Source: Roseococcus sp. SDR (GTDB taxonomy: Bacteria; Pseudomonadota; Alphaproteobacteria; Acetobacterales; Acetobacteraceae). Taken from it: a stretch of DNA of 64,000 bases. The stretch covers positions 1-64,000 of the forward strand of contig NZ_JAHRCU010000023.1 in NCBI RefSeq assembly GCF_019083995.1, read 5' to 3'. Under the pieces are notes generated by a model, which saw only the letters and a list, made by a program, of their open reading frames with translations, did no database searches and was not told the origin of the DNA. Below, piece after piece: positions 27,060 to 52,317 of this stretch. A program made the translations under genes and the position numbers. Each line of letters starts with the position of its first letter. The first letter of the stretch is position 1.

Positions 27060-27104
27060 TGGTGCCGACTCGGGGAATCGAACCCCGGACCTACTGATTA
27101 CGAA
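27060..27104 (-). pseudogene. 3' half of a split tRNA-Thr(CGT)
   Basis: Read on the minus strand this is a perfect tRNA 3' part: anticodon loop TTCGTAA, stem strand TCAGT, variable region AGGTC, T-arm CCGGG-TTCGATT-CCCGG-like, acceptor strand AGTCGGC, discriminator A and CCA. Nothing to its right (upstream on this strand) resembles a D-arm or a 5' acceptor strand. The missing 5' half, with acceptor strand GCCGACT that pairs exactly with AGTCGGC and stem strand ACTGA that pairs exactly with TCAGT, lies 25 kb away at 52,281-52,317. Confidence 0.9.
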
Positions 27105-27109
27105 TCGGT
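27093..27109. repeat. attL
   Basis: On the minus strand this reads ACCGA-TTCGTAA-TCAGT. The right part is chromosomal tRNA-Thr (stem strand TCAGT) and the left part comes from the element. The core shared with attR is the 11 bases 27096-27106, which contain the whole anticodon loop. Confidence 0.85.
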
Positions 27110-27137
27110 TTCCTTGCTTCCCATATATCTGCATTAT

Positions 27138-27197
27138 GCAGACTTTCTCCCCTGTTTTTTGCCATCCAAACCACTCAAAAGATTTGGGAAAGTCTGC
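27138..27197. repeat. 10-bp inverted repeat near the left end
   Basis: GCAGACTTTC (27138-27147) and GAAAGTCTGC (27188-27197) are perfect inverted copies 40 bases apart, between attL and the integrase gene. A binding site for an excision or integration cofactor is possible. Confidence 0.5.
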
Positions 27198-27244
27198 CTT
27201 TTAGGTCTGGATGTCTGTATGCCAGGGAAAGCCTTATGTGGCCT

Positions 27245-27298
27245 GATTTGACAACATCTGTTGTCTGGCCCGTTGTCTGAAACCCATGGATGTTGTCT
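27245..27298. repeat. left arm-type sites (TGTTGTCT repeats)
   Basis: A 23-base sequence here (27245-27267, starting GATTTGACAACATC) is identical to 52068-52090 near the right end. The subunit GTTGTCT recurs at 27261, 27272 and 27292, and on the right at 52084 and 52095, with an inverted copy near 52259. The arrangement fits arm-type binding sites of a tyrosine recombinase. Its own gene begins inside the left set. Confidence 0.7.
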
Positions 27299-28645
27299 AA
27301 GACGTCTATGGGAGCCTTCAGAGAACCTTTGTCGTATCGGGAATTGGCGGAGGCCATGGACCGACCCTTCACGGGTCAGGAGGACATCTTCGTTGGTGGG
27401 GTGTCAGGCCTCTCGGTCCGCAGGGGTGCGAAGGGGGCTTCTTGGGTTCTGCGCGGCCGTATCAAAGGGGCGACCACGGTTCGGACATGGACGCTTGCTG
27501 GATATGATGACCTGAACCTTCGGGAAGCCCGTGAGCGTGCTGCTGCTGCGCTTCAGATGGCTCGTGACGGCACTGACCCAGCGCCGTGGTTGTCTGGTCT
27601 ATCGGGTGCGAATTCCAGGAAGCCTAAGGCTCCTCCTGTGGAGGTTCGGAAGCCTGTCCCGTATCGGGAAGCCTTGGAATCCTTTTTGAAAGAGAAGGCG
27701 CAGACCACGGTCGAGGCGACTGTGAGGAGCTACAAAAGTGACCTCATGCACTCGGATGTGGTGTCGGCATTCCAGACCATGGATGACATCACAGTTGATG
27801 GGCTTCAGGGGGTCGTGGATAGTCTGACGAAGCGGGGGAAGCGGACCCAAGCCATCAATGTGCGGCGGAACCTGCTCACTCTCCTGAGGTGGGCGGCGAC
27901 GGTTCCGAGCATCAGGTTTTCCCGTGACCGCATTGCGACCCTTGAGGAAGAGACTGCGGTCGGACAGGTCTCAAAGAAGATGGCCAGGAACCAAAAGGCC
28001 GAGCGTTTGCCATCCCTTGAAGCAATGTCGGAGTTCCTATGGAAGCTCGATGCGGCATCCGCGCCCGTGCACATGAAGCTCGGTCTCGTGATGCTCGCCT
28101 TGACAGGCCAACGCATCAAAACCCTTCGCGAAGCCGAGGCGGGATGGTTCAAAGATGGTCATTGGGAAATCCCTGGTCGCGCTATGAAGAGCGGACGGGA
28201 CCACGCCATTCCGCTTGGGCCTTTTGGGTTGGCCGTGTCTGAGGCGCTCGTGAAATCAGCGCCCACCGACCCGAGCGGCAAGGGTCTTCTGTTCCCAGGT
28301 CGCCACATCGAGACCCAGGATGACGATGAGGAACCAACGGCCAAGGCGATGACATATCGTCCGTTCAACGAACTCTGCCATGAAGCTCTTGGTGACAGCC
28401 TGCACCCGCTCAGGCACGCATTTGCGACATACGGCGAAGCTCGCCTTGGCTTAGAAAGGCTAACTCTCCAGGCCCTGATGGACCACAGCGAACGCAGTGT
28501 GTTTGAGAGGGCCTATGCTCACGGCAAGAGAACAGAACTCATGCGTTCTGCCCTTGTCTCCTGGGAAATTTGGTTCTTGAACATCTCACGACGAGAAGAA
28601 CATCTCCCCCGTTTTCTGCCAGACCTGCCTGTCCCCAGACTGTGA
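27290..28645 (+). CDS. tyrosine recombinase / phage-type integrase
   Basis: 451 residues. A core-binding region (about 120-215; YREALESFLKEKAQTTVEATVRSYKSDL) precedes the catalytic domain. I see Arg I in TGQRIKTLR (about 273), the HxxR box in LHPLRHAFATYG (about 370) and the nucleophile Tyr in FERAYAHG (about 408). It is the integrase expected for the split tRNA site, lying about 180 bases inside attL and overlapping arm-type repeats, so its product may repress its own gene. ATG 27308 is an alternative start. Confidence 0.88.
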   Translation: MLSKTSMGAFREPLSYRELAEAMDRPFTGQEDIFVGGVSGLSVRRGAKGASWVLRGRIKGATTVRTWTLAGYDDLNLREARERAAAALQMARDGTDPAPWLSGLSGANSRKPKAPPVEVRKPVPYREALESFLKEKAQTTVEATVRSYKSDLMHSDVVSAFQTMDDITVDGLQGVVDSLTKRGKRTQAINVRRNLLTLLRWAATVPSIRFSRDRIATLEEETAVGQVSKKMARNQKAERLPSLEAMSEFLWKLDAASAPVHMKLGLVMLALTGQRIKTLREAEAGWFKDGHWEIPGRAMKSGRDHAIPLGPFGLAVSEALVKSAPTDPSGKGLLFPGRHIETQDDDEEPTAKAMTYRPFNELCHEALGDSLHPLRHAFATYGEARLGLERLTLQALMDHSERSVFERAYAHGKRTELMRSALVSWEIWFLNISRREEHLPRFLPDLPVPRL

Positions 28646-28881
28646 GAAGGCCCTCCGAGCCCGGCATGTTCGACTGGCTTCATTCAACACCGGGGCGTCC
28701 CGGTCACACATGAAACTGGACGCTTGTCGTCCGCGTGCGCTACTCAATCGCCATGACCTTCGTTTTGCGAACACGCATAGCCTGAGCTCGACGGCGCGCC
28801 CGTGCTCTCCGCCTTGCGGAAATACAGCACAGGCCGCCGACTGACCAACTCACGCTTGCCGCTTCGGAAGGTTATGCCGCC

Positions 28882-30354
28882 ATGGCCAACAGGCCCAAGG
28901 CCGTCTTCGTTAATCCCGACGACAGTGCCGCTACCAGTGAGCAAATTGAAGAACTCGCGGCCGAGCGCGAGGAAATCAGCCGAGACATCGCCGTGCGCGT
29001 AGCTCGGGTTATGCTCAATTCCGCGTTGATGACGGAAGTGTGCGAACTCGGTGAACTCGACGGGCTGAGCCTCGTAATGCTGCCCTCGATGGAATGGGCG
29101 AGGCCCGTCCGCGATGCCATCAAACTGGGGGCACGGGGCGGCAAGGGTCCGACGACGGTTCGAGCGGGACAGCCCGCGCCTTTGCGTGCCGAGCCTGGCT
29201 GGGCTTTCGTTGAAATCTCTGGCCGCGTTGGCTGCGAAGCACCTGCTCGCATTGCCATCGCGCTGTCGCAGGGCCTGTCTGTTGTCGCCGTCGCAGCGGC
29301 GGCTGACCGTGAGCGGCTACCGCTTGGCCTTGAAGGCGCTGCTGACCGCGTGCTCGTCCTGCAGCCCCCGTCCTGGGTCGGTCTCGCCGCAGCGGCGATG
29401 GAGGGCAGGCAAATCGAACGCGTCGACTGGAACTCGGTTCGGCACGACGAGGCTCTGCTGGACGGGCTGACCCCGTCCATTCTCGGCATGTGTTATCGCC
29501 ACGGGCAGCGCGTACAGGCGTTCTGCTCCCGCCTTGCCAGCGCGCTCAAGTTCGCCGCGAAACGCAAGCTCGCTTCCAGCGGTCCTCGTGGGCTGGCCCG
29601 AGTTCCTGGCCTTTCTCCTGCGGTGAACGACTGGGTGCACAGCCTCGTCCGCGACTTCGCGGATTATCGGGAGGGGCGAATTGGGTGGGCTGAGGTTGAC
29701 CGTGGTGCGGTCATCGCTGGCCCGCCTGGCTGCGGGAAAACGACGTTGGCCCGTGCCATGGCCGAAGAGATGGGTGTCCCGCTCATCCTCGGCTCCCAGG
29801 CGCAGTGGCAGTCCTGTGGGCACCAGGGGGATATGCTCAAGGCGATGCGCGGCACCTTCGCTGAGGCCCGACAAGCCGCGCCGTGCCTGCTGTTCCTTGA
29901 CGAACTCGATGCCTTCTCTGACCGCCGTAAGCTGAGCGGGGATAACGCCGAGTATTGTCGCCAGGTGACCAATGCGCTGCTCGCGGAACTCGATGGGGCG
30001 GTCGGTCGAGACGGGGTGGTCGTGATTGGCGCGTGCAACCATGCCGACCTGCTCGAACCCGCTTTGACCCGCCCAGGGCGGCTTGAACGTGTGCTGGCCC
30101 TGGGACCGCCCGACCGCGACGTAATGGAAGCTGTGCTGCGTGTTCATCTCGGCGGTGAGCTCAAGCACGAAGCGCTCGCTGATGTCGCGGTGCTCGCACA
30201 CGGGATGACGGGTGCTGAAGCGGAGGCAGCCGTGCGTGACGCGAAGCGGGCGGCACGCGTCCTGGGGCGACCTCTGCGACGCGGTGACCTGCTCTTGGCC
30301 ATTTGCGAAGCGCGAGGAATTGAGCTCGTTGCACATGCGGCGCTAATTCACTGA
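28882..30354 (+). CDS. FtsH-like AAA+ ATPase without a protease domain
   Basis: 490 residues. The first 265 are unrecognised. The AAA+ module then has Walker A AGPPGCGKTTLA, Walker B CLLFLDELDAF, sensor 1 in VIGACNHADLL, and the RPGRLERVL region that supplies the Arg finger, with a short lid. FtsH-type proteins would continue into an M41 zinc protease with HExxH, but this one stops right after the lid (last residues ELVAHAALIH). It may act as a remodelling ATPase. It is alone on its strand, and the 236 bases before it hold no gene. Confidence 0.8.
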   Translation: MANRPKAVFVNPDDSAATSEQIEELAAEREEISRDIAVRVARVMLNSALMTEVCELGELDGLSLVMLPSMEWARPVRDAIKLGARGGKGPTTVRAGQPAPLRAEPGWAFVEISGRVGCEAPARIAIALSQGLSVVAVAAAADRERLPLGLEGAADRVLVLQPPSWVGLAAAAMEGRQIERVDWNSVRHDEALLDGLTPSILGMCYRHGQRVQAFCSRLASALKFAAKRKLASSGPRGLARVPGLSPAVNDWVHSLVRDFADYREGRIGWAEVDRGAVIAGPPGCGKTTLARAMAEEMGVPLILGSQAQWQSCGHQGDMLKAMRGTFAEARQAAPCLLFLDELDAFSDRRKLSGDNAEYCRQVTNALLAELDGAVGRDGVVVIGACNHADLLEPALTRPGRLERVLALGPPDRDVMEAVLRVHLGGELKHEALADVAVLAHGMTGAEAEAAVRDAKRAARVLGRPLRRGDLLLAICEARGIELVAHAALIH

Positions 30355-30377
30355 CCGTCATGCGACATGATGGCCAA

Positions 30378-30387
30378 AGCGAACTAT
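30378..30387. repeat. AGCGAACTAT motif, copy 1 of 3
   Basis: The ten-base word AGCGAACTAT occurs three times in the element, each time between genes: here, at 33856-33865 and at 48990-48999. Here it lies between the convergent ATPase and methyltransferase genes. Confidence 0.4.
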
Positions 30388-30435
30388 GTCAGTTCGACAA
30401 GCCTTCTGGCAGCTCTTACGAAGGACCTGAATTGC

Positions 30436-32700
30436 CTATCCTGAAAGTGGGAGCGGCGGACCCGTTCCCTTCATGAGCAAGAGTTCCGCCCTCGCACGAC
30501 GATGAGCGTCTCGGATGCCCAGAGGGGCGACCGAGAACCCGTGCTGAGCGGCGAGTGCCCGGACTTCGGGGCGGTCATCATAGGTCACCAGCACTCGCCC
30601 CCGCACACGAGCCAGGCTGGAAAGCATGGCGGCGTGGTCGAGGTCGTGATGCTCGTACAGCCTGGCCCCTGGACCACCCGCGAAAGAGTATGGCGGGTCC
30701 ACGAAGAACGACACCCGCCCGTCATCGCGGAACTCGTGGATGGTCTGCATCGCGTCCCCGCGAAGCAAGATGCGGCTGCGGTGTCGGCGGATGGCGTGGA
30801 GGCGCTCGACCATGGTGCCCACGCGCCAGTGCCGGTGAAGTTCCTCATCCCTGGCCAGGCCTCCCCGAACGATGCCCCCGTAATGGAACCGCGAAGCGAG
30901 AAGGCGACGGGCCGCCACCACATCAGGGGCCTGGTCACCATCCGTGCGGGCGACGAAATCCGCCCACCACGCTCGGCTCGGCTTGGCTTCCTCAAGCCTG
31001 TCCACCAAGCCACGGAACTCCGAGGACGTGCCTGCCGAGACAACCTGCCAGAGGCAGCGCAGTCCGTGGTCGCGTTCTGCCAGCACGATGCGGTCGGTCG
31101 CACCCGTGAGCAGGGCGCGCACGGACACGGCCGCGCTACCCGCGAAGGGTTCAACGAGGCACGTCGTTGCTCCGAGCAGGGACACCAGCCGCGACGCGAC
31201 CTTGGCCTTGCCACCAGGACACCGGACAGGAGTCGAAGCGACACCGATGCGCCCGCGTGCGCCCGCACCACGCCGTGACGGCGCTGCCCGTCGCCCCCCA
31301 CTGCGGATGCCCCGCCTGGGTTCGGGAACATAACGCGGGAGCGGGGGCAGGCCGCGAGAGGACAGGTCTCGGTCGACGGCGGCGAGCAGGAACTCGGCCA
31401 TGCCGACATTTGCGTCCGCCGCCAAGGCAGAGATGCGCTGATGCGCCTCGGGCACCAGGCCGACTTCGAGGCGCGTCGTCCGACGCTTCATCGGCCGATT
31501 GGCCGTCGAGCCACCTCGGGTGTCCTTGCGGGCACGCTGCACGGGAGCGCGCCGCGACTGGACCGAAGCCGAGACCGCCGCACGGGCCAGGGGGGCGAGC
31601 AGGTGCTGGGCGAGATGCTCGTACACAGGCACCACCACCGCGTCGCCCGTGAGTTCCCTGGTCCTGATGTTCGCAGGCAGCACATAGGTGTCGGGCAGGC
31701 CCGTCAGCCTCGCCCGCTCTCGCGACGTGAAGGGCCGCACGCGGAAGCCCTCATCATCCACGACTACGAGTTGCTGCGCCTCGTGTCCTTCCGACGCGAG
31801 AAGGCACCGTGCCACGCCGTCGAAAGCAACCTGCTGACGCAGCATCGGCGCGCCGCTCGCATCGTTGCGCCGCTTCTGCAGCGTGACCCCAACCCGAACC
31901 CCAGCCTGGCGCGCGGCTTCGATGGCGGCGTGGTCCTGGGGCTGCATGCGGGCCTTGATTTCCTCAAGCCGCAAGGGAGCAACCCAACGCGGGTCGGCGG
32001 GCGCGTCCTCCATGAGGTCGGTGAGAGTGGGGGGATGAGAAGGCGGGGCGGGCAGCGTCCACCACCGCCATGCCGCACGCACCGCAATAGGCAGTGCCGC
32101 ATGAGCCTTCTTTAGGGGAGCGGTGTGCCAGCGCGCCACGGGACCGCTGCGGGCGAGAGACCTGGGAACTGCGACGTCTCGGCGCACCGCCACGAGAAAG
32201 AGCCGCAGTCGGTTTTGCGGCAGAAACTGGCGGGCATTCATGAGCAGGGCACCGACGACGTACCCATGCGAGACGAGCGAGGTGCAGAGCGCCGCGAAAT
32301 CGCGCCCGTCATCCACGGAAAGCAGTCCCGGGACATTCTCGAACGCGAGAACCTTGGGAGCGCGCCCCAGTCCACGGAGTTCATCGACCAGGCGAAGGAC
32401 GTGGAATGCGACCACGCCGCGCTCCCCGTCACCGAAGCCACGACGCTCTCCCTGGATGCTGTGGTCCTGGCATGGGGACGAGGCGGTGATGAGTTCGACG
32501 TGCGGAAGTTCGTGCCCCCGAACCTGCTCAATCGGCCTGGGGTCGAAACGCACCTCGGGGCAGTTCGCACGGTACGACTTCGCCTTGTGCCGGCAGAAGT
32601 CGTTCGCGTAGGCCGTGGTGAACCCAGCCCGCGACATCGCGATATGGACACTGCCGCCGCCAGCGAACAGTTCCGCGAAGGGAATGCCAGCCGTTTCCAT
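30436..32700 (-). CDS. fused cytosine-C5 and adenine-N6 DNA methyltransferase
   Basis: 754 residues. The N-terminal part is a Dcm-type enzyme: FAELFAGGG (motif I, about 8-16), SSPCQDHS (motif IV with the catalytic Cys, about 74-81), FENVPGL (motif VI) and QNRLRLFLV (motif VIII). Around 415-460 there is a ribbon-helix-helix-like linker (RRTTRLEVGLVPEAHQRISALAADANVGMAEFL). The C-terminal part is a D12-class adenine enzyme: CPGGKAK, VEPFAGSAAVS (about 520-530) and DPPYSF (about 670). Both active sites look complete. ATG 32700 has GAGG 7 bases ahead. A partner nuclease is not adjacent. Confidence 0.85.
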   Translation of the reverse strand: METAGIPFAELFAGGGSVHIAMSRAGFTTAYANDFCRHKAKSYRANCPEVRFDPRPIEQVRGHELPHVELITASSPCQDHSIQGERRGFGDGERGVVAFHVLRLVDELRGLGRAPKVLAFENVPGLLSVDDGRDFAALCTSLVSHGYVVGALLMNARQFLPQNRLRLFLVAVRRDVAVPRSLARSGPVARWHTAPLKKAHAALPIAVRAAWRWWTLPAPPSHPPTLTDLMEDAPADPRWVAPLRLEEIKARMQPQDHAAIEAARQAGVRVGVTLQKRRNDASGAPMLRQQVAFDGVARCLLASEGHEAQQLVVVDDEGFRVRPFTSRERARLTGLPDTYVLPANIRTRELTGDAVVVPVYEHLAQHLLAPLARAAVSASVQSRRAPVQRARKDTRGGSTANRPMKRRTTRLEVGLVPEAHQRISALAADANVGMAEFLLAAVDRDLSSRGLPPLPRYVPEPRRGIRSGGRRAAPSRRGAGARGRIGVASTPVRCPGGKAKVASRLVSLLGATTCLVEPFAGSAAVSVRALLTGATDRIVLAERDHGLRCLWQVVSAGTSSEFRGLVDRLEEAKPSRAWWADFVARTDGDQAPDVVAARRLLASRFHYGGIVRGGLARDEELHRHWRVGTMVERLHAIRRHRSRILLRGDAMQTIHEFRDDGRVSFFVDPPYSFAGGPGARLYEHHDLDHAAMLSSLARVRGRVLVTYDDRPEVRALAAQHGFSVAPLGIRDAHRRARAELLLMKGTGPPLPLSG

Positions 32701-32927
32701 CACCAGCCTCGCTTGCAGCTGGCCGCACGCCCGCCCAGAGCGCGGCGATGAGAAGCCAGGTTGGCGCGGGCACGGGCCGTGCGAACACGGCACGCGGCGC
32801 GACGGGCGTGGGGACGTTGAAAAATGGACGGAGAAGGGGCGCTGCTCGCTTCGCGCGAGATGATGTCGCTCGCCATGATGATGGTGGTCCTGCCAGGAGG
32901 GATGTCCGCGAGGGGCCGTTGGCCCAG

Positions 32928-32957
32928 GACCGCTCCTCCAAGGCTGGAGGAGCGGTC
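32928..32957. terminator. perfect 13-bp hairpin between two leftward genes
   Basis: Arms 32928-32940 and 32945-32957 pair fully around the loop AGGC. It lies 43 bases after the end of the gene at 33000-33671 and about 230 bases before the methyltransferase start. There is no T-run, so it could be a terminator, a processing site or a binding site. Confidence 0.45.
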
Positions 32958-32999
32958 ATCGCGGTATCGAGCGGGGCAGGAAGGGCAGGGCGCGCACGG

Positions 33000-35443: not shown

Positions 35444-36010
35444 TTAAGCAGCGTCCTTCACGGCCCTCCAAACAATCGTCTTCCCGACACCAAGGACGCG
35501 CCCGATATCCCGCAGGCTTCGGCCCTCAGCGGCCATCCGCCTCGCCTCATCACGCTGGAATGGTGTGAGAACCCGCCGCCGACCAGGGTGACGGCCAGCC
35601 TTGCGAGCGGCAGCGATGCCCGCCCTCGTCCTCTCCAACATCACGCCACGTTCCCATTCCGCGACCGCCGCTAGAACCTGAACGACCAGGCGGCCTGCAG
35701 CTGTGCCTGTGTCCGCACCCATATCCAGAAGACGAACGGCCACGCCGCGGCGGTCGAGGCCTTCGATGACGGACAGTAGGTCAGCGGAGTTCCTACCCAA
35801 CCTGTCGAGCTTGGCCACAACCAGCACGTCACCCGTGACCAACCGTCCCAGGACGGAAGCGAGGATGGGGCGGGCCAGGGCGGGGACTGAGCCGCTGATG
35901 ACCTCCGACGCGATGTGGTCGGCAGGAACTCCAGCGGCCACCAGCGCCATCACCTGCGGCGCGGTCTCCTGTTCCGCTGTGCTGACCCTCGCATATCCCC
36001 ACGTCGCCAT
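35444..36010 (-). CDS. serine recombinase (resolvase/invertase family)
   Basis: 188 residues. The N-terminal catalytic domain has GYARVSTAEQ (nucleophile Ser), VVAKLDRLGRNSADLLSVIE and AVAEWERGVMLERTRAGIAAAR. The C-terminal helix-turn-helix has GRSLRDIGRVLGVGKTIVWRAV. It is the usual length for a resolvase. Such enzymes resolve cointegrates or multimers at nearby res sites, and the gene-free DNA at 36,011-36,645 is the natural place for one. Confidence 0.88.
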   Translation of the reverse strand: MATWGYARVSTAEQETAPQVMALVAAGVPADHIASEVISGSVPALARPILASVLGRLVTGDVLVVAKLDRLGRNSADLLSVIEGLDRRGVAVRLLDMGADTGTAAGRLVVQVLAAVAEWERGVMLERTRAGIAAARKAGRHPGRRRVLTPFQRDEARRMAAEGRSLRDIGRVLGVGKTIVWRAVKDAA

Positions 36011-36645
36011 GGCCCCCCCTTTCAATGCCTGTCCCTAATGGTGCCCTGGCATATTGCAGAACGTCCGGTCTTTTCGCAGTTCCGCCCCCTCCCCCCACTC
36101 TCCGTTTTGGGCGCGCTGTCGCCTGCCGTTTCTCGGCAGCAACTACGGGACAGGGATGCGGGACGCGGAGGGGCTGGACTGGCCTGGAGCGGGTTGAGTG
36201 GGTCGCAACCGTCCGTTTTGGGGACGGCTGACGCCTTTTGTTGCTGACTACCAAAGAAAAGCGGCTGCCTGCTCAGAGGCGGTGCATCAATCATCTCGAT
36301 GATGGAACGCATGGTGGCGGGCACGATGGCCTCCGATTGTGCCAGCCACGGGCCACGGTGCGGTCGACTGCAATCCATGGCGCACTCCGAAGAAGCGCTG
36401 CCGCGACGAATACAGTAATAGTCCTGAGCGATAAAAATTCCGTCCGTTACTTCGATGTGACATGAAGCACCTGAAAAGCTTTCTCAGCTTGATGGCAGCT
36501 TCAATTTTATCTGACCTACATGACAAAAGAAATTTTTTGGATACGCCTCTTTTTTTGAAATGATGACTTGACTGGCTATTACTGCAGGATAAATGATATG
36601 CAATCGGCGATATTGCCGATGAATTCAAGATAGGAGATTATCGAA
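36011..36645. other. 635-bp gap, possible res region
   Basis: No gene is supportable. The left half is GC-rich with several small inverted repeats (for example CCGTCC-GTTTTGG-GGACGG near 36,210). The right half from about 36,400 turns sharply AT-rich and leads into the next gene. The composition step marks a likely junction between DNA segments of different origin. Confidence 0.4.
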
Positions 36646-40447: not shown

Positions 40448-42361
40448 CTATATCCTGAAGCCGATGGCAGCCTGCGGTTCTGCAACGCGGGCAGGGGCCA
40501 TCTCTGTCTCTGCCCTGAATTGCTCACGCAGGCGCTCTTGCTCGTCCCAGGACAACGGGCAATCCTCGACCTCGATGCCGCGCGCCAGCAACTCACGCGA
40601 CGCGTTGGCACGGAACTCGTCATCACCCGTCACGACCACACTCGCCCAGCTCCTGCGCTGGACACAAGACACCAGCTCGGAGATGGCCACATCGTCGGCT
40701 TTGCCGCGAACCGTGATGCGGTCCCCCGTATCGAGCAACTGCGCCCCCGACCAGAGCGTCAGCAGCAGCCACGCACCCGCCTTGTCCCTGTCTATCCGCC
40801 TCACGTTTACGATGGCCTCGGGCGGCAGCCAGTAGTCCAGCCGATAGGCTTGCCGTAGGAGCACCAGGCGAAAACGCTCGCGCCTCAACCTCAAGTCTGG
40901 TTCAGGCTCGGCCACGCGAATGGTGCGACTTGCCACGCCCTCCACGCGCGCGACGCGCTTCACTGGACCTCGGACCTGCTCGCTCCATGTCAGCAGCCTG
41001 GCCCTGTCCTGGGGCAGCCCAAACCGACCTTGGATGGCCGCGACGTCAATCAGTCGTCTGAGTCGTCGTGCTCTGTCCTCTTGGCTACGCGGGGCTTGCG
41101 CTGCGGCACAGTCTCGTCTGCCAGTTGCTTGGCCTCGTTCCATGCCGCTTCGCGGTTCGCCCTGCTGCTGAACAAGAGCACCAGCGCGTTCAGCCTCTCG
41201 TTCGTGACTTTCTGCTGTTCCACCATTTCGCCGAGCAGCCCCTCGATGCGGTCCAGCGAAGTCTCCCCCGCGTGCTCCTCCGCCATGTCCAGGAGCGCCA
41301 TGAGCAGGTTTGCTTTCTCGGCTGCGTGCAGCGATGCTGCGTATGCAGGCGTCATACCTCGCGCGTCTAGAGTTCGCAGCGTCGCTGGGTCCACCATCCC
41401 CGCGAGCATCTCCGAGAAGTCGTGGGTGCTCCAGCGCCTGTCGTTCGTGTCGTCGTCCATTGTTCTTCCTCCCCGTTGTTCCTGCCTCTGGCAGGAAGCA
41501 ACCTGTTGTTGGCGCGTCGACCTCGGCGCGCATGAAGTTGTTGACCGCGTTGCTCTTCACTCGAACGAGTCGATGCAACGCCCCCGCGAAAGCCCACGAA
41601 CCGTCTGGTCCCTGAGCCTCGACGACCCAGCGCGATGCCTTGTCGCCCCGCACAGCGCGCAGCCCGCTTTCGCTCAGTATGTCCTGGAACGCTGCAACAT
41701 CGCCGCCCGCCAGCGTCCAAGCATCGCGCACATCACGCTCGACCCCAGGCATTGACCGCCTGGCTCGCCGCCCGAGTTCGTTGTGCAGCCCATCAGGCCA
41801 GGCGCTCTCCGCACGGGCATCGGGCTGCAATCCCTCGGCGCGCAGATAGTCCGCGACTTCGCCACTTCCCTCAGCCGCCAGGGCATCGAGCACGGGTGCA
41901 TTGAAGCGTCCTGGGACGATATCGTGTCCCCACGCTACCTCCAGCTTGCGGCTGACCTTCTCGTGCCTCGCGTAATCCCAGCGCGTCGAAAGAACCTTGC
42001 CCGTCAGCGGATTCACCTCGGGCACGAGCAGGTGAAGATGGAACTCCGAGGCAGCACCATCATGTCGTGGCTTCTTGTGCCGAATGAGGACGACGCGTTC
42101 AGTGTCGAACTCAAATTCCGCCGCCAGTGCCGCCACGGCCTCGGCTTCTTGCTCGGGAGTGATGTCCTGCTCGGGCGAGAGCTTCCAATGACGGATAGCG
42201 AACTCCTTCTTTCGCTTCCGCGCGTCTCGAACCCAGTCGTGCAGGTCTTGCTCCGCGCCGCGCAGCAGCGTGATTTCTTCGTTCGCGGGACCACGCAGGA
42301 CGTGCTGTGCGGTGCTTTTCGCACCCACACGCGCTGGCAGGCGGGAGGACTTGATAATCAT
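40448..42361 (-). CDS. relaxase (MobA/VirD2-like) with C-terminal LPD7-type domain
   Basis: 637 residues. The start MIIKSSRLPARVGAKSTAQHVLRGPANEEI and the metal-binding FHLHLLVPEVNPLTGKVL (about 107-125) fit the Relaxase/mobilisation nuclease family. The last 120 residues (from LPPEAIVNVRRIDRDKAGAWLLLTLWSGAQLLDTGDRITVRG) fit the large polyvalent protein domain 7 seen after relaxases. The middle (about 300-435) is a low-complexity Gly/Arg/Ala linker, because that DNA also encodes another protein in a different frame. The start overlaps the MobC-like gene by 4 bases. Confidence 0.8.
   Translation of the reverse strand: MIIKSSRLPARVGAKSTAQHVLRGPANEEITLLRGAEQDLHDWVRDARKRKKEFAIRHWKLSPEQDITPEQEAEAVAALAAEFEFDTERVVLIRHKKPRHDGAASEFHLHLLVPEVNPLTGKVLSTRWDYARHEKVSRKLEVAWGHDIVPGRFNAPVLDALAAEGSGEVADYLRAEGLQPDARAESAWPDGLHNELGRRARRSMPGVERDVRDAWTLAGGDVAAFQDILSESGLRAVRGDKASRWVVEAQGPDGSWAFAGALHRLVRVKSNAVNNFMRAEVDAPTTGCFLPEAGTTGRKNNGRRHERQALEHPRLLGDARGDGGPSDAANSRRARYDACIRSIAARSRESKPAHGAPGHGGGARGGDFAGPHRGAARRNGGTAESHEREAERAGALVQQQGEPRSGMERGQATGRRDCAAAQAPRSQEDRARRLRRLIDVAAIQGRFGLPQDRARLLTWSEQVRGPVKRVARVEGVASRTIRVAEPEPDLRLRRERFRLVLLRQAYRLDYWLPPEAIVNVRRIDRDKAGAWLLLTLWSGAQLLDTGDRITVRGKADDVAISELVSCVQRRSWASVVVTGDDEFRANASRELLARGIEVEDCPLSWDEQERLREQFRAETEMAPARVAEPQAAIGFRI
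41050..41460 (-). CDS. protein nested out of frame inside the relaxase gene
   Basis: 136 residues, entirely inside the relaxase coding region in another frame. It reads like a real protein: an acidic N-terminus (MDDDTNDRRWSTHDFSEMLA), helical middle with LLMALLDMAEEHAGETSLDRIEGLLGEMVEQQKVTNERLNAL, and an acidic end. The start has the strong ribosome site GGGGAGG 7 bases ahead, within the relaxase frame. IncQ plasmids such as RSF1010 also nest mobB (about the same length) within mobA. I see no sequence similarity to MobB and no membrane segments here. Confidence 0.6.
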   Translation of the reverse strand: MDDDTNDRRWSTHDFSEMLAGMVDPATLRTLDARGMTPAYAASLHAAEKANLLMALLDMAEEHAGETSLDRIEGLLGEMVEQQKVTNERLNALVLLFSSRANREAAWNEAKQLADETVPQRKPRVAKRTEHDDSDD

Positions 42362-42915
42362 CGTCGCCCCCTCGGGTGCAGAACCCTCTCCAAATCCCGC
42401 CGCAGTTCCTCGACGCCCGCCTGCACGGCCAGGACCGCCTCCAGCAGCCGTGCGCGGTCGGGCGCGCGGCCCATCTTCGCTTCTCGGTTTGCCCAGACCA
42501 TCGCTTGGTTCAGGTTGTTCCCCACACCAGAGTTCAGGTCTCGCCGAAGACGCAGGAGTTCCTGCAACGCTTCGTCCCCCACGTGTGGTATGTCTTCCTT
42601 CGCGGCATGAGCGAGAAGCACTTCACGCGCCCAAGCCGATACGTCATCGCGTCGTGCCCGCCGTACGGCAGCGAGCAGGGCAGACCGTTCGCGTGGATGC
42701 AGGCGAATACCCAATGGTCTGGACCGTGGCTCGCCCTCCACGGCCCTGGGGGCGCGCTTCTTCCGCTTTGCCTTGGTCCGCTGCGGTCCTGGGACGGGTT
42801 GGCGTTTCGCCATCGGCGAAAGCGCCTGAACGGATGGTGTAGGGGCAGCATCCATGGGCATCCCCCACTCGTCGAGTTCCTCCGCAGCCGAGTTGGGCGA
42901 GAGGGCCTCAGTCAT
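42358..42915 (-). CDS. MobC-like relaxosome accessory protein
   Basis: 185 residues. After a Pro/Lys-rich N-terminus there is PLGIRLHPRERSALLAAVRRARRDDVSAWAREVLLAHA, a ribbon-helix-helix-like DNA-binding part. It is followed by LRRDLNSGVGNNLNQAMVWANR, the signature of MobC-type proteins that open oriT DNA for the relaxase. ATG 42915 overlaps the upstream stop (TGATG), and a GTG one codon earlier is possible. It overlaps the relaxase start by 4 bases. Confidence 0.75.
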   Translation of the reverse strand: MTEALSPNSAAEELDEWGMPMDAAPTPSVQALSPMAKRQPVPGPQRTKAKRKKRAPRAVEGEPRSRPLGIRLHPRERSALLAAVRRARRDDVSAWAREVLLAHAAKEDIPHVGDEALQELLRLRRDLNSGVGNNLNQAMVWANREAKMGRAPDRARLLEAVLAVQAGVEELRRDLERVLHPRGRR

Positions 42916-43157
42916 CACACGTCCGTTTCCCGAGCACGGGCGGCGATGCGGTCTGCGTCCTCCATCGCCTGCACGAGGTCGGGATGTTCGACCTCGTGAA
43001 TCACTATGCCGTCTCGGTTCATGGTCAGCTTGAGCCGACCCTGGATGGTCAGGAACTCCACCTCTGCAGTCAGAGTTCCGCGCGGTACGTCCCAGGACGC
43101 ACGCAGGATGCCGTCGCCAGGATGTTCCCAGCGTGTGGAGGTGTCGGTTGTGGTCAT
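42915..43157 (-). CDS. small protein of unknown function in the mobilisation operon
   Basis: 80 residues, not recognised, with a short beta-rich central part (GTLTAEVEFLTIQGRLKLTMNRDGIVIHEVEHPDL) and a helical end. GGGAGG lies 7 bases before the ATG. It overlaps both neighbours by a few bases, which places it in one translationally coupled set with the MobC-like protein and the relaxase. The longer frame to 43445 is a shadow of the upstream gene. Confidence 0.55.
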   Translation of the reverse strand: MTTTDTSTRWEHPGDGILRASWDVPRGTLTAEVEFLTIQGRLKLTMNRDGIVIHEVEHPDLVQAMEDADRIAARARETDV

Positions 43158-44984: not shown

Positions 44985-44992
44985 AAAGTTTG

Positions 44993-45011
44993 AACTAACC
45001 ACAAACTAACC
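44993..45011. promoter_or_regulatory. paired AACTAACC sites upstream of the KfrA-like gene
   Basis: AACTAACC occurs at 44993-45000 and 45004-45011, 11 bases apart, which is about one helical turn, so a dimer could bind on one DNA face. The site lies directly upstream of the KfrA-like gene and just after the 3' end of the primase-like gene. Self-regulation is plausible. Confidence 0.45.
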
Positions 45012-45056
45012 AAACATATCGTGGATTGGGCGGATTGTCCGGTCTTATTTTAAATA

Positions 45057-47549: not shown

Positions 47550-47923
47550 GGATACCGCCCAGGGAAATCAGAGTTCCCTTGACTGCATCCCAAGAAAAAA
47601 AGATGGAAAACTTTTCCAATTCCACAGCAAAAGGCTGGACAACAGCCATCACGACCATTACATTTGTGTCAGTGAGGCGCGTCGGGTAGTCCTTCATGTC
47701 TGGTCTTTTCTAGGGATGGTTGAACCACTTGAAGAAACTTGGTTGAGATGATGTGAAAACCTTCTCAATCAGCGCACTTCATAACCCATTATATGCATTG
47801 TACGGCAAAACAAAAGAAAAAAGTGAGTAGCCTTGAAAAATCAAGGCCCCTTAAATTTGGTATTGGAGTGAAGGTAGTAGGGACAAAACTTTGGATTGCG
47901 TCAAGGTTTCAAGGTTACTCCAA
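47550..47923. other. 374-bp AT-rich gap
   Basis: No gene seen. It contains the terminator-like hairpin at 47830-47847 and a weaker TTGAGA/TCTCAA pair near 47,743-47,768. The strong AT bias suggests that it holds promoters for leftward genes, including the primase-like gene. Confidence 0.45.
47830..47847 (-). terminator. terminator-like hairpin after the 47924 gene
   Basis: GCCTTGA-AAAA-TCAAGGC, a perfect 7-bp stem. On the minus strand a T-run (TTTTTT, 47817-47822) follows about 7 bases after the stem. It lies 77 bases after the leftward gene ends. Confidence 0.5.
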
Positions 47924-48961
47924 TCAGAATGGGATATCATCATCGAGCTGCTTGGGGCTTTTGTGAATTGCCTTACGTGGCAGCGGTACATTATTGACAA
48001 TGAATAAGTTCATGACGTCTTCTCGGTCCATAAACATGATTTGGCTACGCTTATGCCTATCTAGGGCCTGCCCTATGAACTCCCTGGCGGCTTTGGTTAT
48101 CTCCCCGCCCGCCGCGATGAATGCATGGTCGACCAAAACCTTTCTGTTCAGTTCGGGGTCGAACACCTCGTGTGCCAACATCATCTGTGCTTGATTCAGA
48201 ATTTCAGATATGTTGGCGTTGCCTTGCTTGGTAATCCCTGAGGCGTCCAACTTTCCCTTCTTTGCTTGAATGCCGAAATAGAGGACATGCTGTGTGGGCA
48301 GAACATAGCGCATCCAAATGTCTTTTCCGAACTCAAGTGCCTTATCCTTGTGTCCGCCCGATGTGATGCGGTGAAAGCCAACTTGCCGCAGCATCGGTAG
48401 AAGTACCTCGCCTATGAACTCGTCCTCAGATGCCTTGTCGAGGTAGGCGGCAAGCTGCGCCCGTTTCTCTTCCTCCTGCCTACTGAACGGACGGTGTGGA
48501 TTGGCAGCACTGGCGATGACGCTTTGAGTTCCGACGTGTCGTAGGTAGCATTTGCCATTATCTGCGTAGAAGGCCTCGTAGCCCTCCCTGCCGAGCGGCA
48601 CATTGATGACTCTCAGCGCGTTTTCGCGCTTTTCAGTGTCGTGAACTGTGCGGTCTCCGAGGTCCATCAGTCGGGTCAGAACTCGCAGGAAAGCGTCGGG
48701 CGGTGTCTTCGCATCGGGCTGAGGCTCGTTGAGGATTTCAGTCAGGGCAGAGGCCACCCAGGCCGCCCGCGTGCTCCCATCATGCCGAAAGTCTGTGTCG
48801 GCATCCCTGAAGAACCGCGTCAGCGCACTGCTTGCGCGGTAGGGGAAAAAGAAAGGGGCGTTCTGGTCGTAGTTGCCACAGACCATGTCAGCCAATTCTT
48901 CGATGCTTCGGTCGCGCCACTTCATGGGCAGGAGCATATCAGGCACGCGGGGTGCCAGCAT
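47924..48961 (-). CDS. putative Mrr-like/PD-(D/E)XK protein with an Abi-type N-terminal region
   Basis: 345 residues. The N-terminal part (about 80-155; FLRVLTRLMDLGDRTVHDTEKRENALRVINVPLGREGYEAFYADNGKCYL) recalls the small domain found in front of abortive-infection AbiJ-type proteins. The second half has LEFGKDIWMRYVLPTQHVLYFGIQAKKGKLDASG, where E, D and QAK could form a PD-(D/E)XK site of the Mrr type, then helices with AHEVFDPELNRKVLVDHAFIAAG. A DNA-cleaving defence role is inferred. No cognate methyltransferase is adjacent. Other ATGs at 48937 and 48925 are possible. Confidence 0.5.
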   Translation of the reverse strand: MLAPRVPDMLLPMKWRDRSIEELADMVCGNYDQNAPFFFPYRASSALTRFFRDADTDFRHDGSTRAAWVASALTEILNEPQPDAKTPPDAFLRVLTRLMDLGDRTVHDTEKRENALRVINVPLGREGYEAFYADNGKCYLRHVGTQSVIASAANPHRPFSRQEEEKRAQLAAYLDKASEDEFIGEVLLPMLRQVGFHRITSGGHKDKALEFGKDIWMRYVLPTQHVLYFGIQAKKGKLDASGITKQGNANISEILNQAQMMLAHEVFDPELNRKVLVDHAFIAAGGEITKAAREFIGQALDRHKRSQIMFMDREDVMNLFIVNNVPLPRKAIHKSPKQLDDDIPF

Positions 48962-48989
48962 ACCAGTGGAAAAGCCCGCTTTGCGCGCC

Positions 48990-48999
48990 AGCGAACTAT
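48990..48999. repeat. AGCGAACTAT motif, copy 3 of 3
   Basis: Located 29 bases before the start of the Mrr-like gene. On its coding strand it reads ATAGTTCGCT, which could include a -10-like ATAGTT. The copy at 33856 lies upstream of another leftward gene. Confidence 0.4.
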
Positions 49000-49148
49000 C
49001 TCAAGTCCGTTGACATGGAGGCGGTGAAGCAATGCGAGCGCGATGCCTCTGTCCCTTGCCTTGTCCCACCAATTGTCCCACTATGCCCGTGGTGAGTGTT
49101 GAAAAATAAGGGCTTACTGGTTTGGCTGGGGGTCCAGGTCCCCAATGC

Positions 49149-49432
49149 TTAACCCTTCTTTTTCTGGTCTCGCATCACCTCGCGTTCCGCCCACCCGATG
49201 ATGCCCTCGACGGTGTGGCTCCAGGCAGGCGGTCGGGGGTGCGAGGGGCCGCGCCTCAGGAACTCGTGCCCTTTAAACTCGTGGGCCACTGTCCGTCTTG
49301 TCCCAGGACTGTCACGTCTTCGCCAAGGAACCGAACCTCCCCCGCCACCCGAGCAATCTCGGCCCTGGGCCGCAGACGCAGCGCTAGAAGGTCCTCTCCC
49401 TCGGCCGTGCGGTGCGCTATGGGATTCCACAT
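49149..49432 (-). pseudogene. frame-broken small ORF opposite the cytosine methyltransferase promoter
   Basis: Two overlapping minus-strand frames look like parts of one protein. The first (from ATG 49432) reads MWNPIAHRTAEGEDLLALRL and on to LGQDGQWPT. The second, in the -1 frame, continues VAHEFKGHEFLRRGPSHPRP to the stop at 49149. A single missing or extra base near 49,280-49,300 would join them into about 94 residues. Two separate tiny genes are also possible. Nothing about its function can be said. Confidence 0.3.
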
Positions 49433-49745
49433 GAAGGATGACCAACCACGCCCTGAATCGCGCTGGATGATTCTCGCTGAGGACGGGCGGCACTCGTGGA
49501 TTGGGAGAGCCACAGACCCCAGTCCGCAGGAGATTGCTGCTGCTGGTAGTGCCCTGGATGGCATGGGCCTGGCTGGTTGGGTTGCGGTATGCCGTGGCGA
49601 TTATTGGTGTGGGGTTGGTGAGCCGGAGGTGATGATTATGCGGAGGGTGACCCTCAGGCATCCCGTGGCAGGGGATGAGGCATCTGCGGTGGAGAGGTGG
49701 AGGGAGGCTAGGCGCACCAGGCTTTCTGGTGTCAGTGATGGTTGA
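49431..49745 (+). CDS. small protein of unknown function upstream of the cytosine methyltransferase
   Basis: 104 residues, compact alpha/beta by eye: RWMILAEDGRHSWIGRATDPSPQEIAAAGSALDGMGLAGWVAVCRGDYW, then VMIMRRVTL. I recall similar short proteins on alphaproteobacterial elements, without a known role. ATG 49419 is an alternative start. Ribosome sites are weak for both. It ends 12 bases before the methyltransferase start, so it may be the first gene of the restriction-modification operon. Confidence 0.5.
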   Translation: MKDDQPRPESRWMILAEDGRHSWIGRATDPSPQEIAAAGSALDGMGLAGWVAVCRGDYWCGVGEPEVMIMRRVTLRHPVAGDEASAVERWREARRTRLSGVSDG

Positions 49746-49757
49746 GGGGTGACAATC

Positions 49758-51017
49758 ATGCGGCCAATCGGAATCGACCTTTTCGCCTGTGCTGGGGGTA
49801 TGTCCCTGGGCTTCGAGCAAGCTGGGTTCGACGTGCGTGTGGCCGTGGAAATCGACCCCGTTCATTGCGCCGTCCATGCGTTCAACTTCCCGAACACGGC
49901 CATCATCTGCAAGTCGGTCTCTGAGGTGTCAGGTGCTGACATCCGAAAGGCTGGGAACATCGGTGATGCAGAGATTGCCGTGGTGTTCGGTGGTGCTCCG
50001 TGTCAGGGCTTCTCGATGATGGGAAAGAGGGTTCTCGATGACCCTCGGAACAGCCTCGTCCTTGATTTCATCCGCATCATCGCGGAACTCCGTCCGAAGC
50101 ACTTCGTGTTCGAGAATGTGAAGGGCATCACCATCGCCCCTCACTCGGCCATCCTCGAAGAGATGGTCGATGCGTTCCTTGAGCATGGATATAAAATCCT
50201 TCAGCCGTGGCGAGTGCTGAATGCCGTGGATTACGGCGTTCCTCAAAAGCGTGAGCGCCTCTTCCTCATCGGAACTCGGACAGGAAACCGCTCACCGCGA
50301 TACCCACGCCCGTCCTTGGAGCGTGTGACGTGCGGGGATGCATTGGGGGACATTCCAAATGCAGAGCATTTCCCTGAACTCGTTCACACGGATTCCGTGA
50401 AGACGCATCTCGGAAACCCATCCAGATACGCCATGAAGATGCGCGGTCTGCTGAACGACGACACCGACTTTTCCCATCCTCGGGTGTGGGACAAAGGGGT
50501 GCTGACGGGCAGCCTGCGGGCATCGCACACTGACCTATCACGAAGCCGATTTCTCGCTACAACACCAGGCGACACTGAACCTGTGAGCCGCTTCTTCAAG
50601 CTGGCTCCCGATGGGTTCTGCAACACGCTACGAGCTGGCACGAACACCGACCGTGGCGCGTTCTCCGCACCCAGGCCCATCCACTACGCCTTCCCTCGAT
50701 GCATCACGGTCAGGGAAGCGCAGCGCCTGCACGGATATCCCGACTGGTTCCGCATGCACGTGACGAAGTGGCACGGGTTCCGTCAGGTCGGGAACAGCGT
50801 TCCGCCTCCCTTGGCTCATGCCGTTGCTTCGTCCGTTATGGCGGCTATGGATGGCAAACCGACACGGCCAACCAAGGCCATCAAGCTTGGTCCTGTGTCC
50901 TTGCTTCAGATGGACCTGACCCAAGCGAGTGAACACTTCAATGTGCAGGGCAGGGCCATCGCTCCGCGCACTCGGAACCGCGACCTGTTTACCGCTACCG
51001 AAGAGGTGGATGCCTAG
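49758..51017 (+). CDS. DNA (cytosine-5-)-methyltransferase
   Basis: 419 residues. The conserved blocks appear in order: IDLFACAGGMSLGF (motif I, about 5-18), VVFGGAPCQGFS (motif IV, catalytic Cys), HFVFENVKG (motif VI), VPQKRERLFLIG (motif VIII), a variable recognition region (about 175-270), and RQVGNSVPPPLA (motif X). GAGGGG lies 8 bases before ATG 49758, and a GTG three codons earlier is less likely. The downstream gene is a probable restriction enzyme, so this should protect its site. Confidence 0.92.
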   Translation: MRPIGIDLFACAGGMSLGFEQAGFDVRVAVEIDPVHCAVHAFNFPNTAIICKSVSEVSGADIRKAGNIGDAEIAVVFGGAPCQGFSMMGKRVLDDPRNSLVLDFIRIIAELRPKHFVFENVKGITIAPHSAILEEMVDAFLEHGYKILQPWRVLNAVDYGVPQKRERLFLIGTRTGNRSPRYPRPSLERVTCGDALGDIPNAEHFPELVHTDSVKTHLGNPSRYAMKMRGLLNDDTDFSHPRVWDKGVLTGSLRASHTDLSRSRFLATTPGDTEPVSRFFKLAPDGFCNTLRAGTNTDRGAFSAPRPIHYAFPRCITVREAQRLHGYPDWFRMHVTKWHGFRQVGNSVPPPLAHAVASSVMAAMDGKPTRPTKAIKLGPVSLLQMDLTQASEHFNVQGRAIAPRTRNRDLFTATEEVDA

Positions 51018-51038
51018 CTAAGCTCCCCATGAGAAATC

Positions 51039-52064
51039 ATGGGGGATGACGTGTCCGACGATATAGAACCGATAGAGATAATACCTGAAGAGGAACCCAC
51101 GTCCGCAAAGGCTGGGAACCTCTACAACAGTGTGATATCGGCCATATTCTTTAAGCACTTCGACCCATCAAATCCAAGTCTTCCAATCCCATTCAATAGA
51201 CGAGAATTGAAGGCTACTGCTATAGCCCTCGGAATGGATGAGGCTGGCAATGATGGTGATATCCTCTATAGCTTTAGATTTCGTAAGCCATTCCCCAAGG
51301 AAATCTTGGATACCCAGCCAGAGGGTTTTGAATGGCGGCTCGACCTGAATGGTCGGAGCAAATACCTCTTCAAGCTGGCAAAGCCTTCCAAAATCATTCC
51401 TGATGTGACCTTGGAGGCCATTAACATTCCTGATGCAACTCCTGAAATCATCAAACAATACTCATTGTCCGATGAACAGGCAGCCTTGGCTATCATCAGA
51501 TACAACAGGCTTCTGGATGTCTTTTTGGCTCTGACGACATCCAGCCTTCAGAACCACCTCAGAACCACGGCCAAGGGGTTTGGTCAGGTCGAGATTGATG
51601 AGGTCTATATCGCCGTCGATTCGGATGGCCTGCGCTACGTGATACCCGTTCAGGCCAAGGGTGGGTCGGACAAGATTTCCGTGGTCCAGACCATGCAGGA
51701 TTTGGCTGTCTGCCAACAAAAATTCCCAGGGACGATTGCTCGACCCGTGTCCGTGCAGATTATGCCAGACGGCAAGCTCTGCATGTTCGAGTTGAAGGTT
51801 GAGGATGATGAGACATTGAGCGTTGTCAGAGAGCGCCACTATGTCCTGTCAGCCGCTCCCACGAATGCGAAACTCGGGGCACGTATGCGGAAGGCCCTGG
51901 GCGACAGGCTGCCGAATCCTGATGAGATGGTGATTGACCCCATGATGGGTTCGGGTCGCAAAGACCTTTCTGTCACCCTCAATTCCATCATCAACAGTGG
52001 TGTGGTGGGTGCGAATCCGCCCTTCACGAAGCCAAAGCGGAAGCGAAGAACCACCGCCAAGTGA
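51039..52064 (+). CDS. putative type II restriction endonuclease
   Basis: 341 residues. GFGQVEIDEVYIAVDSDGLRYVIPVQAKGGSDKISVVQTMQDL gives an Asp/Glu pair followed by QAK, a form of the PD-(D/E)XK active site. The helix after it is typical for restriction enzymes. The C-terminus is Lys/Arg-rich (PKRKRRTTAK). It starts 21 bases after the cytosine methyltransferase on the same strand, the usual arrangement of a type II pair. The recognition sequence is not known. Sequence style is AT-richer than that of the methyltransferase. Confidence 0.7.
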   Translation: MGDDVSDDIEPIEIIPEEEPTSAKAGNLYNSVISAIFFKHFDPSNPSLPIPFNRRELKATAIALGMDEAGNDGDILYSFRFRKPFPKEILDTQPEGFEWRLDLNGRSKYLFKLAKPSKIIPDVTLEAINIPDATPEIIKQYSLSDEQAALAIIRYNRLLDVFLALTTSSLQNHLRTTAKGFGQVEIDEVYIAVDSDGLRYVIPVQAKGGSDKISVVQTMQDLAVCQQKFPGTIARPVSVQIMPDGKLCMFELKVEDDETLSVVRERHYVLSAAPTNAKLGARMRKALGDRLPNPDEMVIDPMMGSGRKDLSVTLNSIINSGVVGANPPFTKPKRKRRTTAK

Positions 52065-52067
52065 GGG

Positions 52068-52110
52068 GATTTGACAACATCTGTTGTCTGAAATGTTGTC
52101 TGAGGTGGTG
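52068..52110. repeat. right arm-type sites (TGTTGTCT repeats)
   Basis: 52068-52090 is identical over 23 bases to 27245-27267 at the other end of the element, and a second TGTTGTCTGA lies at 52094-52103. They directly precede the element's own tRNA-Thr. Confidence 0.7.
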
Positions 52111-52183
52111 GTGCCGCAGGAGGGAATTGAACCCCCGACCCACGCATTACGAATGCGTTGCTCTACCCCTGAGCTACTGCGGC
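52109..52183 (-). tRNA. complete tRNA-Thr(CGT) carried by the element
   Basis: On the minus strand: acceptor GCCGCAG with CTGCGGC, D-arm TAGCTCAGGGGTAGAGCAAC, anticodon arm ACGCA-TTCGTAA-TGCGT (anticodon CGT), T-loop TTCAATT, discriminator A and an encoded CCA (52109-52111). All stems pair. It has the same anticodon as the tRNA gene that the element has split and lies 93 bases inside attR. Confidence 0.93.
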
Positions 52184-52275
52184 CCTTAGCACAACCTGGC
52201 TTTCCGCTCGATAGCACGGAGCGAAACGGACAACAATCTACCAGCAAGATACCCACTCAGACAACAGGTCTTACA

Positions 52276-52292
52276 ACCGATTACGAATCAGT
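52276..52292. repeat. attR
   Basis: On the minus strand this reads ACTGA-TTCGTAA-TCGGT. The left part (ACTGA, loop) is the chromosomal tRNA and the right part (TCGGT) comes from the element. With attL this predicts an attP of ACCGA-TTCGTAA-TCGGT and a chromosomal attB of ACTGA-TTCGTAA-TCAGT. Confidence 0.85.
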
Positions 52293-52317
52293 TGCTCTAC
52301 CCCTGAGCTAAGTCGGC
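52281..52317 (-). pseudogene. 5' half of the split tRNA-Thr(CGT)
   Basis: Minus strand: acceptor strand GCCGACT, D-arm TAGCTCAGGGGTAGAGCAAC, stem strand ACTGA and anticodon loop TTCGTAA. It then runs into element DNA with no variable region or T-arm. Joined to 27,060-27,104 it makes a perfect tRNA-Thr. Confidence 0.9.

Follow-up and report, generated by a model that had tools for sequence, protein, structure and literature searches.

We examined a 64,000-nucleotide stretch of the draft genome of Roseococcus sp. SDR (contig NZ_JAHRCU010000023.1, positions 1 to 64,000; hereafter the window), in which a tRNA-Thr(CGT) gene of the host is split in its anticodon loop by an inserted element that carries an intact tRNA-Thr(CGT) gene of its own. 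The features at the two ends of the element are as follows.

27060-27106, minus strand: displaced 3′ half of the host tRNA-Thr(CGT), starting with the shared core (attL); pairs with the 5′ half, and the gene is intact in the relative L032
27093-27109, no strand: attL core ACTGATTACGAATCGGT, host half plus element half
27259-27300, plus strand: three TGTTGTCTGA-like repeats at the left end, 1 mismatch each, putative arm-type integrase sites
27290-28645, plus strand: tyrosine integrase, 451 amino acids (Pfam Phage_integrase and Arm-DNA-bind_3), adjoining the left junction
52068-52103, plus strand: right-end TGTTGTCTGA repeats, two exact
52109-52183, minus strand: replacement tRNA-Thr(CGT), intact, CCA encoded (ARAGORN and Rfam, 70.9 bits)
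52257-52266, minus strand: third exact right-end TGTTGTCTGA repeat
52276-52292, no strand: attR core ACCGATTACGAATCAGT
52279-52317, minus strand: 5′ half of the host tRNA-Thr(CGT); pairs with the 3′ half, and the gene is intact in L032
52334-52362, minus strand: candidate host tRNA promoter, TGGACA-17 nt-TATGCA, pointing at the broken 5′ half, with the replacement tRNA beyond it

The original prediction held that two halves of one tRNA-Thr gene lie about 25 kb apart and that neither end of the element is rebuilt, and both statements stood. The acceptor strands of the halves (GCCGACT/AGTCGGC) pair at 7/7 positions and their anticodon stem strands pair too, whereas acceptor pairing between the broken 5′ half and the replacement tRNA reaches just 4/7. 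An 11-bp core, GATTACGAATC, is common to both junctions (27096-27106 and 52279-52289), with no third copy in the window, and the positions of the two copies give an element length of 25,183 bp. ARAGORN called no tRNA at either junction, i.e. there is no rebuilt target gene. The element thus lacks the mark of a tRNA-restoring island, a target tRNA rebuilt at one junction, and has the marks of tRNA-dependent integration, namely a tyrosine integrase and a short common core with neither junction rebuilding the tRNA. Its G+C fraction is 0.604, versus 0.707 and 0.700 in the two flanks. From the cores, attB would read ACTGATTACGAATCAGT and attP ACCGATTACGAATCGGT, each corresponding to the 17-bp anticodon arm; in 17 relatives, the anticodon arm of tRNA-Thr(CGT) equals the predicted attP in 7 and the predicted attB in 10.

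That the halves were once one gene is confirmed by the closest relative, L032, where both window flanks are joined around an intact 75-nucleotide tRNA-Thr(CGT) (L032 positions 1434-1508) whose two parts are identical to the window's halves. Identity to L032 is 87% in the left flank (window 25678-27037) and 88% in the right (52318-54000), and the L032 locus has no match to the element. The left flank was matched in 1/17 relative loci, these loci being short, and the right flank in 17/17. An intact tRNA-Thr(CGT) stands beside the right flank in 17/20 genomes of the same genus; among the other three, L049 has no tRNA in the stretch examined and two have weak flank matches. In 11 loci from more distant genomes (L050-L060) no tRNA was found beside the flank gene.

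The replacement tRNA was identified by both ARAGORN and Rfam as the single intact tRNA-Thr(CGT) in the window. It lies 95 bp inward of the attR core (93 bases had been given previously), on the same strand as the broken 5′ half, and is identical to the broken host gene at 60/75 positions. The host genome (5.0 Mb, 62 contigs, 99.5% complete) yielded 47 tRNA matches, read via loci L001-L030 and L061-L076 and the window; these include one Thr(CGT), that of the element, one Thr(TGT) and one Thr(GGT), so that the search for another intact tRNA-Thr(CGT) in this draft genome found none. ACG accounts for 75/201 threonine codons in nine chromosomal candidate open reading frames (ORFs) and for 79/214 in nine element ORFs.

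Both ends of the element carry additional sequence signals. At up to 1 mismatch there are 7 TGTTGTCTGA-like repeats in the window; 6 lie close to one or other junction, at most about 200 bp away, and the repeats may well be integrase arm sites. The repeats at 52068-52103 sit in a stretch that starts with a 23-bp direct repeat of 27245-27267, and the replacement tRNA is located between the right-hand repeats. Upstream of the broken 5′ half, a GGCGCTA motif at the -10 region of the candidate promoter is kept in 11/17 relatives. A scan for terminator-like sites on the minus strand between the broken 5′ half and the replacement tRNA listed none, and the element tRNA has at most a weak reading of a promoter of its own.

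The remaining genes recognised on the element, listed below, bear on its type.

28882-30354, plus strand: AAA ATPase, distantly like IetA defence ATPases (PADLOC IetA 9.2e-27; well under the NCBIfam IteA cut-off)
30436-32793, minus strand: fused cytosine-C5 and D12-type adenine DNA methyltransferase, 785 amino acids in a single ORF (Pfam)
35444-36025, minus strand: serine resolvase (Pfam Resolvase, 1.1e-34)
40448-42361, minus strand: relaxase of MobA/VirD2 type with LPD7 (Pfam; distant kin)
42358-42918, minus strand: NikA/MobC-like mobilisation protein, weak (Pfam matches under curated cut-offs)
49749-51017, plus strand: cytosine-C5 DNA methyltransferase (Pfam)
51039-52064, plus strand: type II restriction enzyme, adjoining the replacement tRNA (PADLOC PDLC03404, 9.5e-95)

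In the integrase, R275, K300, H372, R375, H399 and Y409, which we take to be the catalytic set of a tyrosine integrase, are invariant columns in an 8-sequence alignment. The relaxase has distant kin on 4 plasmid records. The restriction enzyme has no Pfam or NCBIfam match, and a homology search found no kin of an 830-amino-acid protein. The Pfam scan covered 20 of the element ORFs, among which there were no virion or conjugation-pore proteins. The element combines an integrase with a relaxase, as expected of an integrative mobilizable element, and looks like one; it is apparently not a phage.

These data very probably mean that an integrative mobilizable element broke the single tRNA-Thr(CGT) gene of its host and supplies its own copy, most likely via a captured host promoter. 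The account starts from direct observations: the split gene, the empty site in a relative, the sole intact copy found on the element, the integrase, the relaxase and the orientation. The tyrosine integrase would bring about recombination between attP of the element and the sole tRNA-Thr(CGT) gene of the host at its anticodon loop, strand exchange probably taking place within that loop. Because attP and attB share just 11 bp, neither junction rebuilds the tRNA gene, and the host would tolerate the insertion because a complete tRNA-Thr(CGT) comes with the element's attachment region. After recombination the right junction would keep both the likely host promoter and the 5′ half, with the replacement tRNA just inside this promoter-retaining junction and on the same strand; given this position and strand, integration probably places the replacement under the host promoter, although the replacement may also own a weak promoter. 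Read-through followed by tRNA processing would then yield the needed tRNA, and the element tRNA would supply the ACG decoding destroyed by the insertion. Transfer of the element would presumably involve mobilisation by a helper. That the host tRNA was destroyed and replaced, the strategy envisaged in the original prediction, is well supported by the empty site, the sole copy on the element, the shared anticodon and strand, and the recurrence of the arrangement in other genomes, described below. The two outcomes named beforehand as refuting the original prediction, element-free relatives lacking the joined tRNA and a further intact tRNA-Thr(CGT) in the genome, were both looked for, and the results favoured the prediction on each count, as far as the draft genome shows.

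Several points weigh against this account. The draft assembly leaves room for a second tRNA-Thr(CGT) in a gap, and the CGT gene may be non-essential because a tRNA-Thr(TGT), which might decode ACG via wobble, is present. The consensus promoter scan listed no sigma-70-like site at 52334-52362, so the promoter candidate is one read from the sequence and its partial conservation (11/17 relatives). The window integrase has no close relative, and hence no family of its own that would support its activity. As Pfam covered part of the ORFs, phage or conjugation genes may lie among the others.

Were the element tRNA a mere passenger, the host would cope through its tRNA-Thr(TGT) reading ACG. That tRNA is indeed in the genome and its wobble reading is plausible; against the idea stand the anticodon and strand shared with the broken gene, the position 95 bp from the junction and the recurrence of this layout in many hosts, and we regard it as quite improbable. 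The original prediction went further and likened the arrangement to an addiction system; in an addiction device, the host tRNA would be destroyed so that cells that lose the element die. The part of this proposal that stood is that the sole CGT tRNA found is the element's. Against it, both halves and the core are intact, so a precise excision, attL x attR, should yield the host gene again, which argues against a plain addiction device, and the remaining tRNA-Thr(TGT) may read ACG. Addiction is thus unlikely, while a weaker form of it, in which loss or decay of the replacement or an imprecise deletion would be punished, could operate.

Two further explanations were considered. The perfect complementarity of the halves would suit a split tRNA gene of the kind found in some archaea, in which separate transcripts of the two halves are joined in trans, but relatives have the intact gene, a full replacement lies nearby and a mobile element separates the halves. 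We know of no bacterial trans-joining system for split tRNAs and consider this reading far-fetched. An assembly error joining unrelated contigs might be suspected in a draft genome of 62 contigs; such an error would not account for complementary halves, an integrase at one end, flanks that are contiguous in L032 or the same anatomy in other genomes, and its probability is negligible. Destruction and replacement of the host tRNA by an integrative mobilizable element is the explanation that we retain.

To look for the same layout elsewhere, we used a pattern consisting of ATTCGTAAT, a D-arm motif and a second ATTCGTAAT about 90-150 bp further on, which gave 1 match in the window and 0 in 100 shuffles. 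The pattern was found in 4 viral_contigs records and in at least 117 genome_contigs stretches, a lower bound from which no prevalence rate can be derived; record titles were seen for 80 of the 117. Among the 121 listed loci, the cut falls within the anticodon loop in 82 and past the anticodon stem, on the T-loop side, in 26; a further 12 are without a clear 5′ half, and there is 1 tandem of intact genes. These classes contain a few possible misassignments (L114, L218 and L154 may be anticodon cuts), and the rule for anticodon-loop cuts ignores the 3′ half, so decayed copies would count. Some of the 82 anticodon-loop loci are non-proteobacterial by title, e.g. L125 and L177. An earlier classing rule (107 broken, 11 without a half, 3 tandem) was replaced by the present one. 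The layout is uncommon, as it occurred in 1/398 genomes of a phylum sample, the window's own. With the replacement in the opposite orientation it occurred in 0/398 of these genomes and in no viral_contigs record, against 1/398 and 4 for the same orientation, these being small numbers.

The 3′ halves were sought in 27/121 records, and 19 stretches or sets were read at length. In 17 other records a broken 3′ half lies downstream on the same strand, 5.2-22.7 kb from the break: Devosia, Pelagibacterium, Ciceribacter, Pseudaminobacter, Oceaniradius, Actibacterium, Marimonas, Ruegeria, Nioella, Zoogloea, Comamonas (degenerate), three metagenome-assembled genomes (MAGs) and the viral contigs L107, L109 and L110. 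L108 and Lysobacter (L276) have no 3′ half in the stretch examined. The four viral records aside, the replacement is the sole intact match to the tRNA-Thr(CGT) 3′-half pattern in 22/23 genomes; the 23rd (G795) has a second match to the pattern, which may be either intact or broken. Across 18 elements including that of the window, the best half pair matches at 7/7 acceptor positions in 16 and at 6/7 in L261 and L107. The broken 5′ half pairs equally well or better with the replacement in 4/18 (L260, L261, L263 with L264, and L275), and in 7 further elements this pairing is only one pair worse, so the acceptor test alone is weak outside the window. In Comamonas (L275) the 3′ half is degenerate (ATCA end) and the integrase is a 195-amino-acid piece; in Marimonas no integrase kin was found.

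The predicted attP core CCGATTCGTAATCGG is the same as the window's in 4/6 elements of the beta/gamma type (L107, L110, L269 and L270). Prim-Pol is present in 4/6 islands with genes listed: Pfam recognised it in L107 and L259, and homology to L107 revealed it in L109 and L269. Cargo includes PRTase-CE (L107), type II restriction (L269) and type I restriction-like genes (L259, L263). L271, an 8.6-kb island in a Burkholderiales MAG, encodes SIR2-domain and short Argonaute proteins together with a replacement tRNA-Thr(CGT).

The kinship of the integrases was less clear-cut. Close relatives of the window integrase were absent from genome_contigs and viral_contigs (searched with one-sequence patterns) and from plasmids, with one weak phage match, and at 1e-20 none of 396 other genomes of the family matched (1/397, the integrase itself). 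A search at the level of the integrase class matched 34/385 genomes including its own, the others at 23-30% identity, and 5/29 integrase loci from this search are near an intact tRNA-Ser(GGA). In a quick tree, a single clade with full support unites 15 integrases, which come from 15/17 islands; the window integrase falls outside this clade and has a very long branch (4.15). A single clade of all 16 replacing integrases was not rejected (p 0.486), and grouping of the window integrase with the beta/gamma group alone was rejected (p 0.002); given the long branches and the quick tree, neither outcome is firm.

Separately, five distant integrases (L084, L085, L093, L097 and L099) lie near the 3′ halves of other tRNAs that seemingly start at the anticodon arm.

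The premise of the original prediction that tRNA-targeting elements usually rebuild the gene agrees with published work, and a strategy of replacing it instead has been in print since 2024 (PMC10865867). That paper, by Guerrero-Bustamante and Hatfull in mBio, describes tRNA-dependent lysogeny of actinobacteriophages (Fionnbharth, LeBron, Gaia and others): removal of the phage tRNA made lysogeny rare and integration plasmids failed, and the Lactobacillus johnsonii prophage Lj965 is cited as a likely case. Like the window element, these phages have a tyrosine integrase with putative arm sites, an attB inside a tRNA gene and a short common core (8-17 bp, versus 11 bp here), do not rebuild the tRNA, and supply a tRNA of the same isotype that is not close to the host's, the best relatives of the Fionnbharth tRNA being at 88% and the window pair at 60/75 (PMC10865867). 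Unlike them, the window element bears a relaxase, is apparently non-phage and has a host outside Actinobacteria, one that the kin of its tRNA and relaxase suggest to be an alphaproteobacterium. In Fionnbharth, the tRNA overlaps a gene located elsewhere and is driven by a promoter of its own that has been tested (PMC10865867); in the window, where the target is tRNA-Thr(CGT), the replacement is part of the attachment region and lies towards the host promoter.

Prophages of Sinorhizobium meliloti AK21 and RU11/001 sit in tRNA-Leu(UAG) and resemble the window element in inactivating the tRNA mid-gene and bringing an isoacceptor instead, one nearer to those of other Alphaproteobacteria; they differ in being prophages and in the tRNA targeted, and the other tRNA-integrated elements of that study left the gene whole (PMC11476347). 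Prophages of the phiLM21-like group reportedly do not replace the tRNA in this way (PMC12429752). Classical islands of the Islander type share the tyrosine integrase and the tRNA target with the window element but restore the target gene (PMC4383910). Since the window element does not, finders based on a rebuilt tRNA may miss islands of its kind. The islands with Arm-DNA-bind_3 integrases found above (L107, L269, L259, L271 and others) have the same target and the same replacement anatomy as the window element and, where scanned, also carry restriction or other defence-like genes; they differ from it in their separate integrase clade, in Prim-Pol (4/6) and in their sizes of 5-23 kb.

In a literature search that took in a minority of subscription journals, we recognised no paper on a mobilizable element, a restriction-carrying island or any other non-phage element of this kind. 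Castillo et al. (2018) reportedly described integrative and conjugative elements of Acidithiobacillus that recombine at the anticodon stem-loop, which may bear on novelty. As far as our searches show, the principle is known from tRNA-dependent lysogeny, and what appears to be new is its adoption by an element that is apparently non-phage, along with its broad occurrence.

Taken more widely, breaking tRNA-Thr(CGT) and supplying it again from the host's promoter may be routine, in Alpha-, Beta- and Gammaproteobacteria, for a wide range of islands that are equipped with anti-phage genes and are mostly not phages. This standard module would have been acquired on more than one occasion, and a variant of it acting at the T-loop would occur in Bacillota and Bacteroidota; its carriers would escape tools that look for a rebuilt tRNA and would keep exchanging the tRNA-Thr(CGT) of their hosts. 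We give this broader proposal an even chance. The findings themselves extend a trick of phage lysogeny, which they place in a mobilizable element and also in small islands whose cargo includes restriction or other defence-like genes, and they suggest that a core translation gene has been replaced by foreign copies across a range of species. The layout can serve as a simple rule in searches for islands that finders based on a rebuilt tRNA may overlook, and it provides a testable reason why certain elements have a single tRNA gene beside the attachment site.

Nested remains were seen at two loci, L219 and Marimonas (L265/L266), with two broken 5′ halves before one intact tRNA or two successive broken 3′ halves. 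They suggest that a replacement tRNA can itself be targeted by the next element. We had considered that the window replacement might be shielded from re-insertion by its different anticodon stem; this idea was dropped, as the replacements in L219 and Marimonas have apparently been split in turn.

Finally, records from Bacillota and Bacteroidota (L113, L116, L119, L130, L176, L186, L215 and others in the class of 26 loci) often show a break in the T-loop, where a first, broken tRNA-Thr(CGT) ends in ..GGTT and is followed by an intact copy, apparently an instance of the same strategy with the cut at a different sublocation. Flavonifractor (G1170 C259) has two identical 3′ parts at a distance of 11 kb. 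The Ruminococcus MAGs L186 and L117 contain arrays of 5 or 6 tRNA-Thr(CGT) anticodon arms at a spacing of about 117 bp; the array copies that were read are broken and followed by a similar att-like sequence, and they resemble the footprints of repeated insertion.

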